A stretch of 36,571 bases of DNA. Source: Bacteroidota bacterium (lineage in GTDB: Bacteria > Bacteroidota > Ignavibacteria > Ignavibacteriales > SURF-24). Below, one piece after another: positions 6,280-11,691 of the stretch (position 1 is the stretch's first letter; each line of letters opens with the position of its first letter). The notes below the pieces were generated by a model. The model was not told the origin of the DNA. It did no database searches and worked only from the letters and a program-made list of their open reading frames with translations. The stretch lies in assembly GCA_030706145.1 (NCBI GenBank), contig JAUZPB010000038.1, positions 1 through 36,571 of the forward strand. Direction: 5' to 3'. Both the position numbers and the translations under genes were made by a program.

Positions 6280-7107
6280 CTAAAAGCTAATCAGAAATGA
6301 AAGTGAAGGAGAGTTATTTACCATCCCAAGGTTAATACTTAATGCTTTGTTCTTATTAGTAATGTAGGAATAATAAACGATATTACTGATAGCCGTACCG
6401 GCAAGAGCACCGATTAGGACGTCACTCAAATAATGCTTGTTATCCTTTAGCCTGCTATAGGCAACAAATGAAGCCCAGCCGTATAGAATAGAAAAAGAGA
6501 CAAATTTTGCGGCAAATTTGGGAAGGGTCCTTTCAGGCATCTTTTCATTTAGATAATCGTTGAACTCAAGAAAAAGAAATGAAGCAGCAGCAAAAGATGT
6601 TGAACTATGACCGCTAAAGAAACTTTTTGTATCGCTGCTATCGGGGCGCTGGCGATAGGTCCAATTCTTTACAAATTCTGTAAGTGTATAGGTATAAACC
6701 AGTGACTTATAGAACAAGAAGGAATGCCTGTGGTTTTCTATTCCGTCTGTGTTCTTTGAAAAAAGGTCGTAAGCTGCGTTATATAAGACTCTTGTAAGTA
6801 GAATGCTTTGTGGTATTATATCTCTGTTCAGGTTATCAGGTTTAGTTTTACCAGCAAACCCAAGTTCTTTTTGAATATGTAAATCAACATTAGATAAACC
6901 TAACTTAATCCTGTCATCTGATTCAGGGGCCAAATACTTTCCGGAAATATACATAGCGCCAACTGGCAGGTCATACCATCTGAGATTTTCAGAGATGGCC
7001 TGAGAAATGTTATTTGCCGTCAGTTTAAGTCTTTGTGAAAATTCCTGGGACTGTACTGCGGATACAGCTATTGAAAGCATCAGGACAGTTAAAATTTTCC
7101 TCATCAA
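6280..7107 (-). CDS. PAP2-family phosphatase, exported
   Basis: 275 residues with a clear N-terminal signal peptide (MMRKILTVLMLSIAVSAVQS). All three type-2 phosphatidic-acid phosphatase motifs are present: KNWTYRQRP (147-155), FFSGHSS (163-169, His167) and SRLKDNKH...D (218-229, His225 and Asp229). PAP2 enzymes remove phosphate from lipid phosphates such as phosphatidate or undecaprenyl pyrophosphate, or from small phospho-compounds. Here the active site would face the periplasm. Hydrophobic stretches lie around the second and third motifs. It follows the CotH-like gene by five bases, so it belongs to the vtc-DUF4956-barrel-CotH operon. The substrate is unknown; given its neighbours on both sides, a lipid phosphate or a polyphosphate-related substrate is plausible. 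Confidence 0.88.
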   Translation of the reverse strand: MMRKILTVLMLSIAVSAVQSQEFSQRLKLTANNISQAISENLRWYDLPVGAMYISGKYLAPESDDRIKLGLSNVDLHIQKELGFAGKTKPDNLNRDIIPQSILLTRVLYNAAYDLFSKNTDGIENHRHSFLFYKSLVYTYTLTEFVKNWTYRQRPDSSDTKSFFSGHSSTSFAAASFLFLEFNDYLNEKMPERTLPKFAAKFVSFSILYGWASFVAYSRLKDNKHYLSDVLIGALAGTAISNIVYYSYITNKNKALSINLGMVNNSPSLSFLISF

Positions 7108-7112
7108 TCATT

Positions 7113-8243
7113 TTATCTGTTGAAAGAGTCAATATTGTTTAAAAGGTAAGCCCTTCGCTCTTTTATAAAACACTTTACTTTAGAGATTTCTTTTTCAAGT
7201 GAAATCCCATTTCCACCAAGGTAAGGATCACAGCTGTAGGCATCCTTAATTTTAATATACGCAGAATCTATGATAGGATAAAGCTTTTCTTCGGTAAAAT
7301 AGTTATTGAGTATATTCTGGAGATCATCCTTGTAAAGAGAAAAACAACTGTCGTTTTGAAACAGTTTTCTGATAATAGCATTATCGCCCGCAAAACCTAG
7401 GTGAGCATCAGGATCAAAGGTCTTATCAAAATCCCAGGGGAGCAATTTATAAGGGGAGTTTGGCTTTTCCTTAAACAAGTAGAAGTTATTTCCAAATCCA
7501 TCACTATTATTTATTATCGTTGTTATGGCATGATATAACAGGTACTGTTTAATATCTATATAATTTCCCAGTTCCTGCAGGAGGTTATTAGCTTCGGAAT
7601 TATCAATTGCATTAATAAGATCGGCCAGATTATTAAAATTTCTGTCATCCGGAATTTTCTTTTCGAAGTTATCCTTAAGATCATTTTTCTCTGAGAAAGA
7701 GAACTTTGCTCCAAAAACAACTTTGATAAGTTCATTTACAGGCAAGTGCCTTTTAATAAAATAATTTTCATCAATTTTTTCTGCGAGCACATATAATCCC
7801 TTAACATTTCCATTTATCTTCAAAAATGCGTGAGAGGAGTGAAATAAATTAAAGCCTGCCGAGGAATAAATATAGGATGCAAGAGCGGTTTTAATCATTG
7901 TTTTGTCATAAGATTGTATACTTAAATTAAACTGATTCTCCCCTTCGATTGTCTGCCCCTCTTTAAGCCTGACATAATAGCCCCATTTGGGGAAGTATCT
8001 TGCCCCGGCCCCTTGTGCCTCAATCTGTGCATCATATTTTTTTTGGCCGGAATAAATATCTACAGAAACAGATACATTACTGAACTTGTTTTCCTGCAGT
8101 ATCCTGTAATTTTCATCACTTACATAACAGTCCAGCACGGAAACTTTATCAATGCTATCAACAGGTCCGTCTACCCTGCTTATTTCACATGAAGCGAGAA
8201 GAAATGTACAAAGCACTGCCATAATGGATTTCAAGTACTTCAT
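7113..8243 (-). CDS. CotH-kinase family lipoprotein
   Basis: About 376 residues from the preferred ATG at 8243, which shares its A with the stop of the upstream barrel gene (TGATG); an in-frame ATG at 8261 lies inside that gene and lacks a ribosome site. The N-terminus MKYLKSIMAVLCTFLLASC is a lipoprotein signal with the lipidated cysteine at residue 19. Recognisable CotH-kinase blocks are LNLSIQS-type text followed by K-containing TMIKTALASY, GLYVLAEKIDENYFIKR, NNSDGFGNNFYLF and the metal-site-like LLPWDFDKTFD. CotH proteins are atypical kinases, first described on spore coats, that phosphorylate proteins using ATP. An exported location raises the question of the phosphate donor. The gene is translationally coupled to its neighbours in the VTC/DUF4956 operon, a combination known from other bacteria. 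Confidence 0.85.
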   Translation of the reverse strand: MKYLKSIMAVLCTFLLASCEISRVDGPVDSIDKVSVLDCYVSDENYRILQENKFSNVSVSVDIYSGQKKYDAQIEAQGAGARYFPKWGYYVRLKEGQTIEGENQFNLSIQSYDKTMIKTALASYIYSSAGFNLFHSSHAFLKINGNVKGLYVLAEKIDENYFIKRHLPVNELIKVVFGAKFSFSEKNDLKDNFEKKIPDDRNFNNLADLINAIDNSEANNLLQELGNYIDIKQYLLYHAITTIINNSDGFGNNFYLFKEKPNSPYKLLPWDFDKTFDPDAHLGFAGDNAIIRKLFQNDSCFSLYKDDLQNILNNYFTEEKLYPIIDSAYIKIKDAYSCDPYLGGNGISLEKEISKVKCFIKERRAYLLNNIDSFNR

Positions 8244-9265
8244 CAGAACATTACCTGACATTCAAAGCTCACTTTTGAACCAATGGTACTATAAGCCGAA
8301 TTAGAGCGATTTCTTGAAAGCAGCAGATCACCATTTATTCTGAGGCGTAAGTCCTTATCGAGATAAATATTTCCACCTGTAATAATCTCAAAAGTGTGAG
8401 AATACTTTTCTTTGCTATCCGGAAAGAATACACCTGCAAGAAGGACAGGTTCAATGGTCTTTATAACTTCTCCATCAATATGGATTGAAAGAGCATTTAT
8501 TGATTTTAGGCCAAATGCATATATGTTGCCTCCAAAACCAGACTGCACATGTCTAAGACTTTCAAAAGGATCTTTTACATACATCATTTCGACTGAGGAA
8601 CTAAATGAATTTTTCTCATAGGTTAGATCAGCACTAAAGCCGCTGGCATTCTGAGGATACTCACCTCCAAGATGCTGGAAAAGATAATTAAGTGACCAAA
8701 TGAGGTCATCATTATGGAAAGAAAATCTGGCGGCAAGACAAGTATTAAGAGAGTTATCTCTCATTACTGCAAGGGCATAAGAATATGGAAATTCGGGGCG
8801 TTTTTTATTGTAGTTATAATAAGCTTCAAGACTTATACTACGGCCTGCATAGCCAAGGTCGGCCACAGAACTCTGAATAAAACTTCTTCCAATTGTAAGG
8901 AGATCTTCAGTATTTACCAGCTGTTCCAAACCGAATGGCTTTTTAATATTGCCAGCCTTAAACTTCATATATTTCAGATAATCGAACTTTACAGAAAACT
9001 CACGTAAGACAAGTCTTTCATCTTCCGAGCTGCCACGCATGTCAAGCTGTGCGTCAATGTGTTTGTTTATTTTTACATCAGCCTGAAGCTTTCCTTCATA
9101 GTAAGCTTCCTGGTTATAATCTCTTAAAACATTTCTGTCATAGATTTTATAACCTGTAGCTCCATAACCGCTGAATTTTATCTTCTCTTGTGAAAATGTA
9201 GTCTCCTGAAAAAAGTTAAGCAGTATAAAAAAAAGCGATATGAGATAATTTTTATAAAGTTTCAC
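8243..9265 (-). CDS. Outer-membrane beta-barrel, phosphate-selective porin (OprO/OprP)-like
   Basis: 340 residues with signal peptide MKLYKNYLISLFFILLNFF...FSQ and alternating amphipathic strands to the C-terminus, which ends with a strand and terminal Phe (SFECQVMF). The segment DERLVLREFSVKFDY...MKFKAGNIKKPFGLEQL resembles the OprO/OprP family, where strands are followed by a VGQxKxPFGLE-type turn. The start is GTG at 9265, in the junction TAGTG with the DUF4956 stop; the downstream stop overlaps the CotH ATG. These one-base junctions imply strict translational coupling. A phosphate or anion channel would fit a polyphosphate/phosphorylation operon, but substrate specificity cannot be read from the sequence. 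It is shorter than classical OprP. Confidence 0.75.
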   Translation of the reverse strand: MKLYKNYLISLFFILLNFFQETTFSQEKIKFSGYGATGYKIYDRNVLRDYNQEAYYEGKLQADVKINKHIDAQLDMRGSSEDERLVLREFSVKFDYLKYMKFKAGNIKKPFGLEQLVNTEDLLTIGRSFIQSSVADLGYAGRSISLEAYYNYNKKRPEFPYSYALAVMRDNSLNTCLAARFSFHNDDLIWSLNYLFQHLGGEYPQNASGFSADLTYEKNSFSSSVEMMYVKDPFESLRHVQSGFGGNIYAFGLKSINALSIHIDGEVIKTIEPVLLAGVFFPDSKEKYSHTFEIITGGNIYLDKDLRLRINGDLLLSRNRSNSAYSTIGSKVSFECQVMF

Positions 9266-9942
9266 TATGAGATTGTCCCGAATTTTAAGACTGTCAGTTG
9301 CCCTTGAGTTGAGTTAAAGAGTTTATTGACAAAACCCTGGACAGTTTTATTCTTCTTAAGGAGAACTTTATAGTCAATAATTGCTTTTTTATCATCAATC
9401 GCTATTATACTCACTATTTCCCAATGTGCAATATCATCATTAAAAGTACTTTCAACAATTTCGCGACCACTGGTTACCTCATTTACTCTAACGCTAAGTA
9501 TATTTCCATTCTGCATTGTCACACTTTTGCCAAAATCCAATTTCCAGAATACCAGGATCACCAATGAAATAAACAAAGTTGCGGATATTGCCACAGTATA
9601 TTGCTGCAATCCACATGTAAGGCCAATTGCCATTTCGAAAAAGATATAAGCAGTATCCTGGGGATTATCTAATCTGGTACGAAAACGAATAATCGAGACC
9701 GCCCCTACCAGTCCAAAAGCACCAGCTAAGTTATTCCCTATTACCAGCATTACCGATGTAACGACTAAGCTTAAGAAGATCAATGTTTGAATAAAGTCCT
9801 GGTCATATCCATTCTTTTTATGTGTCAACATATAAATTCTGAGAACAACCAATGACAGGATTGTTGTTAAGAAAAAGCTAATAAATACTTGTGTCCAGTT
9901 GTAAGTAATATTTACAGATGATAAGAGTTTAATTATTTCCAT
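9265..9942 (-). CDS. DUF4956 integral membrane protein
   Basis: 225 residues. Three or four membrane helices fill roughly residues 20-130, followed by a soluble C-terminal alpha/beta domain. The DUF4956 signature is plain: NNLAGAFGLVGAVSIIRFR and then TRLDNPQDTAYIFFEMAIGL, the conserved RFRT-DP-DTA-F core. DUF4956 proteins are commonly encoded beside VTC-domain polyphosphate polymerases and CotH proteins. A membrane partner that helps polyphosphate synthesis or transfer is an attractive but unproven role. It starts 10 bp after the VTC gene and overlaps the barrel gene by one base. Confidence 0.88.
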   Translation of the reverse strand: MEIIKLLSSVNITYNWTQVFISFFLTTILSLVVLRIYMLTHKKNGYDQDFIQTLIFLSLVVTSVMLVIGNNLAGAFGLVGAVSIIRFRTRLDNPQDTAYIFFEMAIGLTCGLQQYTVAISATLFISLVILVFWKLDFGKSVTMQNGNILSVRVNEVTSGREIVESTFNDDIAHWEIVSIIAIDDKKAIIDYKVLLKKNKTVQGFVNKLFNSTQGQLTVLKFGTIS

Positions 9943-9952
9943 ATATTTTCAT

Positions 9953-10783
9953 TTAATTTAGTTCTACAAGATGGAGACCACCAAGGGTTTTCGTCTCATT
10001 TATACAGTTATTGATTTTTAGCTCACGAATTGAATCGCAGTACTTTGAGAAATGCTGTTTTTTTAAAGCATTATATTTCAGCAATGAAGTCAGCCAGGAC
10101 GGCATTTGACCTGCGTGCTTAATCTCCATAATCATAAAGTCAGAGGGTTTTCTGAAAGGAAGTCTTACTATGCTATTACTACTATTATGCATACTCAGAA
10201 ATTCCAGTTGGGAATCAAAAGTAATTCTAAGTGACTTTTCATTATTTTCAAAGGCTTCTCTATAATATGAAACTGATGTAACAGGTTCTAATTCATATTT
10301 TCTTTTATTACCTATAATTTCACTATAAATTGTGATTAGTTTATCAGTTCTTAATCCTTTATTATGGAAGAATACAGAATCGGGAATCTGCTGGTCCGGA
10401 ATACTGTAAATTAGATCCATATCAGTTTTAAAACGATCTTTTATGGTTGTTGAACTAATCTTCTTCTTTATTTCAAAAAAGCCTACTCCCTTAAAATTTC
10501 TATCTTTTTCGTACTGTCTAAAACGGATCTTGAACCTTGGATTTATTTTGTTCATATGATCATTGAAACATTTCAATTCTTTATTATCAAAATAGACGGA
10601 CCTTATAAAAGGATTTTTAGCTGCTTTTTCATCAAAAGGCATATAAAATGCAATTTGTCCTTTAAGAATATCAGCTATTATTGAGTTTACCAGGTATTTC
10701 ACTTCCATTCTCTTAAACTGGAATTCCTGAGTTTGAGGTTTGGTATATTTTTTTAATTCAATAATACTTGCTGTATCAAACAT
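9953..10783 (-). CDS. VTC-domain protein (polyphosphate polymerase-like)
   Basis: 276 residues from the ATG at 10783, preceded by AAGGA about nine bases upstream. A longer reading from 10897 would add a 38-residue stretch that runs through upstream repeats and has no ribosome site, so I reject it. The VTC tunnel residues can be followed: KRMEVKYLV near the start, IRSVYFDN, the basic KIRFRQY, FFEIKKK, RKYELEPVTSVSYYREAFE, LRITFD and the metal-binding IMEIKHAG. In yeast Vtc4 this triphosphate-tunnel fold makes polyphosphate from ATP. Bacterial homologues are annotated as polyphosphate polymerase domain proteins. It is the first gene of the minus-strand operon. No SPX domain is present. Confidence 0.88.
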   Translation of the reverse strand: MFDTASIIELKKYTKPQTQEFQFKRMEVKYLVNSIIADILKGQIAFYMPFDEKAAKNPFIRSVYFDNKELKCFNDHMNKINPRFKIRFRQYEKDRNFKGVGFFEIKKKISSTTIKDRFKTDMDLIYSIPDQQIPDSVFFHNKGLRTDKLITIYSEIIGNKRKYELEPVTSVSYYREAFENNEKSLRITFDSQLEFLSMHNSSNSIVRLPFRKPSDFMIMEIKHAGQMPSWLTSLLKYNALKKQHFSKYCDSIRELKINNCINETKTLGGLHLVELN

Positions 10784-11019: not shown

Positions 11020-11691
11020 TCATAATCGGATTCGTTGTATTATTCTTTTGGTTTGAGAAGAATTATACCAGTCGTGTTCTACTAGCTCAAAGTTAGTAAT
11101 TTCTTCTATTCCCAATTCTGTATCTTTATTATTTTCAATTGTTTCATTGAATTTTGTAGGATTTTGCAAGGCTTTCCTGAAGCGGACAAATGTTGCATGT
11201 GAGGATTCTGATTCATAGCGCTCATCATTTGTTAGGCTATAACTGTTCATCAGTTCTCTAATATTCTTTCTTATTAAAACTAACACGTTGTTATCAAATC
11301 CCTTTATTAGGCCTGCACTCCTGCTGAAAACAACTCCCTTCAATTCAATGTTAAATGCCCTAATTTTATCTACAGCCCTCTTTGAAATTTCAAGAAAAGC
11401 ATCTTCAAGCGAAGAATTTCTCTGATATTCATTTTTTGCATGAATAAAATCAAAAATCGTAATGTGAAGGTCGTCAAAATTATAATAATATTGGTTTGGA
11501 TCGACATTTGAGAAAACATTGACCAGGTGCTCATATGAAGTAAATATTTGTTTAATAGGAATTATGAGTGAGATCCCTCTACGTAGGTCAGGTTTCCCAC
11601 TTGTCAGGACTTTGTCAATATCAATATTACCCGATTCCAAATAACTTTTATTATTCAAATAGATTTGATTGTATAACTCAGCAGAGCTCAA
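11020..11691 (-). CDS. 2H phosphoesterase-like protein (LigT / 2'-5' RNA ligase superfamily)
   Basis: 223 residues, soluble, no signal peptide. Two HxT motifs sit about 90 residues apart: DDLHITIF (His76, Thr78) and SSHATFVRF (His165, Thr167). Each is embedded in a predicted beta-strand, which is the hallmark of the two-histidine phosphoesterase superfamily. Members hydrolyse cyclic phosphodiesters, 2'-5' linkages or cyclic nucleotides. It lies 236 bp upstream of the VTC operon on the same strand and divergent from the sensor kinase at 11998. The substrate is unknown; family assignment rests on the paired motifs and their spacing. Confidence 0.65.
   Translation of the reverse strand: MSSAELYNQIYLNNKSYLESGNIDIDKVLTSGKPDLRRGISLIIPIKQIFTSYEHLVNVFSNVDPNQYYYNFDDLHITIFDFIHAKNEYQRNSSLEDAFLEISKRAVDKIRAFNIELKGVVFSRSAGLIKGFDNNVLVLIRKNIRELMNSYSLTNDERYESESSHATFVRFRKALQNPTKFNETIENNKDTELGIEEITNFELVEHDWYNSSQTKRIIQRIRL

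Follow-up and report, generated by a model that had tools for sequence, protein, structure and literature searches.

A five-gene operon in Ignavibacteriales joins a VTC-DUF4956 gene pair to a conserved porin-CotH-PAP2 trio

The closest described counterparts of the locus considered here are accessory genes of Gram-positive bacteria, in which members of the VTC, DUF4956 and CotH families are encoded beside pel genes (PMC7112168), for example, SIR_1592-1594 in Streptococcus intermedius (PMC12345266). Pel levels and aggregation in S. intermedius change when the DUF4956 or the CotH gene is deleted, and the three-gene VTC-DUF4956-CotH arrangement was reported in 2025 only at Pel loci (PMC12345266). 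The same three families are adjacent in a Bacteroidota bacterium of the order Ignavibacteriales (contig JAUZPB010000038.1 of assembly GCA_030706145.1; the entire analysed stretch of 36,571 nucleotides is hereinafter called the window), within a run of five genes, all on the minus strand, at positions 10783-6280. Unlike the Gram-positive sets, this operon additionally encodes an outer-membrane porin and a PAP2 phosphatase, and no pel-like or other polysaccharide synthesis gene is seen among the open reading frames (ORFs) inspected around it (3-17 kb). The VTC-DUF4956-CotH arrangement hence also occurs outside Pel, in this order. Our preferred reading, to which we give about an even chance, is that the operon joins a pair for synthesis and translocation of a phosphate polymer to a conserved kinase-phosphatase-porin trio of the cell envelope.

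The run begins with the gene for a VTC-domain protein (9953..10783; 276 amino acids; PF09359, E = 1.3e-42, 146 bits), followed after a 10 bp gap by the gene for a DUF4956 inner-membrane protein (9265..9942; 225 amino acids; PF16316, E = 3.6e-18, 66 bits, with a weak MgtC match). The third gene, which encodes a 16-strand porin-like outer-membrane barrel (8243..9265; 340 amino acids; PF07396 (Porin_O_P), E = 7e-4), has a GTG start that overlaps the DUF4956 stop by one base (TAGTG); another one-base overlap (TGATG) joins the barrel to a CotH-family kinase, a predicted lipoprotein (7113..8243; 376 amino acids; PF08757, E = 4e-47, 161.7 bits). The last gene encodes a PAP2-family phosphatase with a signal peptide that is predicted to be periplasmic (6280..7104; 274 amino acids; PF01569, E = 3e-19, 69 bits) and is separated from CotH by 8 bp if it starts at the ATG, or by 5 bp if it starts at an upstream TTG. 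The tight coupling of these genes, which the original prediction made from the DNA had claimed, is borne out, and the known clustering of VTC, DUF4956 and CotH that it invoked matches the literature on Pel loci (PMC7112168, PMC12345266). The same five genes are found in the same order in a second genus of the same family (genome G160, locus L043), with protein identities of 56% for VTC, 73% for DUF4956, 71% for the porin, 65% for CotH and 64% for PAP2. This recurrence confirms that the operon is genuine and not a chance arrangement. The genes for an acyl ligase/acyltransferase (6175-3635) and Lgt (3605-2823), which had been counted as part of the set, start 104 bp beyond PAP2 and are absent beside the G160 operon, so they were rejected as members of the system and are considered neighbours.

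The first two genes form a module of their own. VTC is present in 40 of the 164 genomes of the order, and DUF4956 in 39 of these 40, the exception being a broken VTC fragment; wherever the two genes are adjacent (61 pairs), VTC is upstream. VTC and DUF4956 are a nearly inseparable pair. CotH is encoded in all 40 VTC genomes, and in 96 of the 164 genomes taken together (P = 6e-12 when counted by genome and ~1e-3 by genus, the latter value being the safer one because related genomes are not independent), and 56 genomes of the order encode CotH and no VTC. Among CotH genomes, the mean number of CotH copies is 4.0 with VTC versus 1.75 (P = 2e-7). The 46 VTC loci of the order include DUF4956 at 43, an HlyD-type adaptor at 39 and CotH, no more than four genes away and in the same orientation, at 19; among 22 clostridial VTC loci, DUF4956 is found at 21, CotH at eight, a Cthe_2159 carbohydrate-binding protein at seven and an HlyD-type adaptor at none, with the proviso that the profile used for the adaptor derives from members of this order and a very different clostridial adaptor could escape it. 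VTC usually follows the adaptor gene in the order and never does so in the Clostridia sampled. The VTC protein of the window, searched as a single query against the genome contigs, matched only five distant loci. The adjacency of VTC-DUF4956 and CotH recurs in two phyla and, together with the presence of CotH in every VTC genome of the order, upholds the functional link that had been proposed; likewise, the adaptors agree with the proposed theme of envelope crossing. The pattern of neighbours is consistent with a product of the cytoplasm that is transported outward and there used together with a secreted protein.

Several individual loci of this module deserve mention. In L085 (3958-9403), CotH, DUF4956, HlyD, a TolC-like protein and VTC are encoded in one run, a full envelope-crossing set. 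The VTC-DUF4956 pair is located beside Cthe_2159-type proteins (PF14262) in two phyla (L160, L161, L162, L163, L168, L177 and L178 in Clostridia, and L070), and in L086, it adjoins genes for a Wzy-like and a CotH-like protein.

The VTC domain is complete (PF09359 positions 1-233 of 235 matched), and the protein matches the Vtc2/Vtc4 structures. Residues R87 and R89 (10525-10517) align with R264 and R266 of yeast Vtc4, and E220 (10126-10124) is, judging by its position, the likely counterpart of E426; the yeast complex is impaired by R264A/R266A/E426N (PMC9911596). These three residues, along with K106, K115, R175, R186 and K247, are invariant among 45 homologues. No transmembrane (TM) helix is predicted, so the protein appears to be cytoplasmic and, on the strength of these matches, is a predicted polyphosphate (polyP) polymerase. 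The eukaryotic VTC complex (Vtc1/3/4), which couples polyP synthesis to translocation (PMC9911596), contains the catalytic tunnel domain that is found in the window protein, and the key residues correspond, whereas the window protein lacks both SPX and a fused TM domain and its likely membrane partner is the MgtC-like DUF4956 protein. The AlphaFold2 (AF2) model of the latter (predicted local distance difference test, pLDDT, 85) combines MgtC-like helices with a ferredoxin/ACT-like C-terminal domain, an architecture that is shared with SIR_1592, the DUF4956 protein of S. intermedius (PMC12345266). A fold search yielded partial ferredoxin/ACT-like matches only and no relative of the whole protein; G80, R86, R88, G107 and G111 are invariant among 45 homologues. 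The DUF4956 proteins encoded next to porin-CotH (in the window, G160, G130 and G131) form one clade (support 100/99), which argues against this link being an accident of a single assembly.

The porin, CotH and PAP2 genes form the second module, which also exists independently of the first. A porin profile searched in 391 genomes of the class gave 19 strong matches (E <= 1e-28) beyond the two five-gene operons, and at 14 of these 19 loci, the porin, CotH and a PAP2 gene on the same strand were called together. In L150, the three are also consecutive, though the porin ORF was not called; L144, where CotH is masked by an overlapping ORF, and L153, where PAP2 is divergent, are outside the trio count. 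Counting the window genome and G160, no fewer than 17 genomes of the class possess the trio, and overlaps of 1-4 bp between porin and CotH are usual. Among the trio loci found, VTC adjoins the trio only in the window and in G160. Six trio genomes that are 94-100% complete (G090, G091, G111, G114, G125 and G129) encode neither VTC nor DUF4956 anywhere, and no CotH besides that of the trio was found in G090, G114 and G129. Conversely, G130 and G131 combine DUF4956, porin and CotH without PAP2 and keep VTC at a separate locus. When genomes were drawn from the whole phylum, every strong porin match fell within this order, and a draw from the class added some from neighbouring families. Neither the trio nor the joined five-gene operon was found described in the literature searched (open-licence full texts only), so porin-CotH-PAP2 is apparently a conserved trio undescribed as yet. 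In L156 (7699-9987), a DUF4956-porin-like pair is followed, in the place of CotH, by a lipoprotein that resembles a lamin-tail-domain protein.

The preferred start of the window CotH, the ATG at 8243, yields a lipoprotein signal with the lipobox LASC and Cys19 (codon 8189-8187). A lipobox is present in 17 of the 20 CotH proteins of this clade, the window included, and several CotH proteins that adjoin other VTC genes carry type IX secretion sorting tails; both features agree with the export of CotH that had been proposed. The protein matches the spore coat kinase 5JD9 along its full length (E = 1.8e-35), and D248 (7502-7500) and D271 (7433-7431) correspond to D228 and D251 of Bacillus subtilis CotH, with the same spacing of 23 as in 5JD9. 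Loss of either residue of this Asp pair inactivates the B. subtilis enzyme, which works with ATP in vitro (PMC7821199). The window protein differs from the spore coat kinases (5JD9/5JDA) in its setting, which is not a spore, in its predicted location as a lipoprotein of the outer membrane and in having QGAGARYFPKWGY where 5JD9 has RGAHIREFEKKSY. In the RGxSS..KK region, the first basic residue is K86 in the window protein, while the other trio proteins have R or Q there; the second Lys is replaced by Trp in all 17 trio-clade proteins aligned, although it is not universal among accepted CotH proteins in general. Both Lys residues are kept in L153 and in members of the DUF4956-porin-CotH type that lack PAP2 (L154 and L155). 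The resulting signature of the trio proteins (window 7113-8243 and L137-L152) is [QSA]GAGSR-like...[KRQ]W in place of the KK of 5JD9.

The three catalytic motifs of PAP2 (KX6RP, SGH and SRX5HX3D) are intact (KNWTYRQRP, FSGH and SRLKDNKHYLSD), as they are in its relatives, and the catalytic residues of all three enzymes, VTC, CotH and PAP2, are retained. The C-terminal segment of PAP2 is conserved as well. The C-termini of the trio PAP2 proteins (6280-6360 in the window) are short and amphipathic, often with a final Phe, and recall the C-terminus of an outer-membrane protein. The porin scores 19.4 bits with PF07396, just below the curated cut-off of 20.9, and its profile found nothing in a sequence search against solved structures. 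Its AF2 model (pLDDT 89) has 16 strands and is closest by VIA to the phosphate and pyrophosphate porins OprP (Z 28.4) and OprO (Z 28.3), the next fold scoring 25.6; this preference depends on the VIA step, Foldseek alone ranking other anion and general porins first. Apart from the shared 16-strand barrel, the window porin differs from OprP/OprO, with 14-15% identity and a lumen in which basic residues do not predominate: as judged by strand pattern rather than by three-dimensional mapping, there are 14 basic and 15 acidic inward residues, many of the acids being conserved. The lumen looks charge-balanced.

Under the preferred reading, VTC would use ATP to extend a phosphate polymer on the cytoplasmic side of the inner membrane, and the multi-helix DUF4956 protein would hold VTC there and pass the chain outward, much as eukaryotic VTC couples synthesis to translocation. 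The CotH protein anchored in the outer membrane, its dedicated 16-strand barrel and the periplasmic PAP2 would constitute a set for phosphorylation and dephosphorylation in the envelope. Placement of the first module upstream of the second in this lineage would cause the polymer and the kinase set to be produced together. The polyP could then be a direct donor for CotH, be cut by PAP2 to phosphate or serve another purpose. That VTC makes an exported phosphate polymer is plausible. Several observations weigh against this scheme. No report of activity of a bacterial VTC was found in the literature searched, and no change in Pel was reported on deletion of the VTC gene in S. intermedius (PMC12345266). 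The operon itself includes no HlyD adaptor gene, the apparently balanced porin lumen does not speak for a polyP channel, and six genomes possess the trio without the polymer pair. The window genome also encodes PPK1. There is a second VTC locus in this genome (L037, G000:C297:1986-10401, minus strand), in which HlyD, VTC and DUF4956 are followed by an SdiA-regulated/phytase-like protein, Porin_O_P, a solute-binding protein (PBP_like_2), two permeases and an ATPase. By its gene content, this locus resembles a Pst-type phosphate uptake operon joined to VTC. Given L037 and PPK1, the setting of VTC in this genome is one of phosphate, and polyP could be stored without it.

In its strong form, the original prediction is more specific than the preferred reading: exported polyP made by VTC would be the direct phosphate donor of an exported CotH that lacks ATP outside the cell. 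In the most far-reaching version of this idea, the chain would be threaded via DUF4956 and then HlyD/TolC-type parts or the porin, with PAP2 acting in opposition. In either form the proposal is very doubtful. It gains from the strict nesting of VTC-DUF4956 within the CotH genomes, the export of CotH, the restriction of envelope parts next to VTC to the diderm one of the groups sampled and the fact that the operon CotH is the only CotH found in G160; the altered basic motif ([KRQ]W compared with the frequent KK) suggests that use of the donor could differ in the trio clade, and the source of ATP for spore-coat CotH has been named an unanswered question (PMC7821199). However, B. subtilis CotH uses ATP in vitro, CotH occurs without VTC in 56 genomes of the order, and the porin lumen does not look cationic, so the barrel as a polyP channel lacks support despite its closeness to OprP/OprO. 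Because six nearly complete genomes run the trio, three of them with no other CotH found, in the absence of VTC and DUF4956, the trio elsewhere does not depend on the polymer, and direct donation cannot be general. VTC as the necessary phosphate source of this CotH clade is accordingly not supported, and VTC as its obligate partner was rejected.

Two other explanations shift the emphasis away from the kinase or from the polymer. The operon might serve phosphate economy, with VTC-DUF4956 storing or exporting polyP, PAP2 freeing phosphate from polyP or from phosphorylated targets, the porin handling phosphate at the outer membrane and CotH being a client. The resemblance of L037 to a Pst system and the OprP/OprO-like fold fit this possibility, but the charges in the lumen look balanced, the best-kept partner of the porin is CotH, and the six genomes without VTC count here as well, so we consider it unlikely. 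It is quite unlikely, in our estimate, that the target of phosphorylation by the operon is an adhesin or glycan of the cell surface and that VTC-DUF4956 plays a regulatory part, like the accessory genes at Gram-positive Pel loci. The adjacency of the three families to pel genes (PMC7112168), the deletion phenotypes in S. intermedius (PMC12345266), the Cthe_2159 proteins at seven of the 22 clostridial loci and the gene neighbours in L086 all point in this direction; on the other side stands the lack of a polysaccharide synthesis gene among the ORFs examined near the operon, a negative that has to be read with the fact that trio neighbours elsewhere were clustered and only some of them annotated.

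Where secreted kinases obtain a phosphate donor beyond the cytoplasm is still an open question and has been raised explicitly for CotH (PMC7821199). The confinement of VTC-DUF4956 to CotH genomes in the order and the HlyD adaptors that adjoin VTC in this diderm order but not in Clostridia turn it into a concrete, testable case, for which the trio provides a natural control, the same kinase set occurring with and without the polymer pair. If polyP does replace ATP as the donor for exported CotH kinases, phosphorylation outside the cell would be driven by a polymer that the cell exports. Finally, a small gene on the minus strand (11020-11691), 236 bp upstream of VTC in the window and not adjoining VTC in the sister operon, shows a very weak match to 2H phosphoesterases (E = 0.09).

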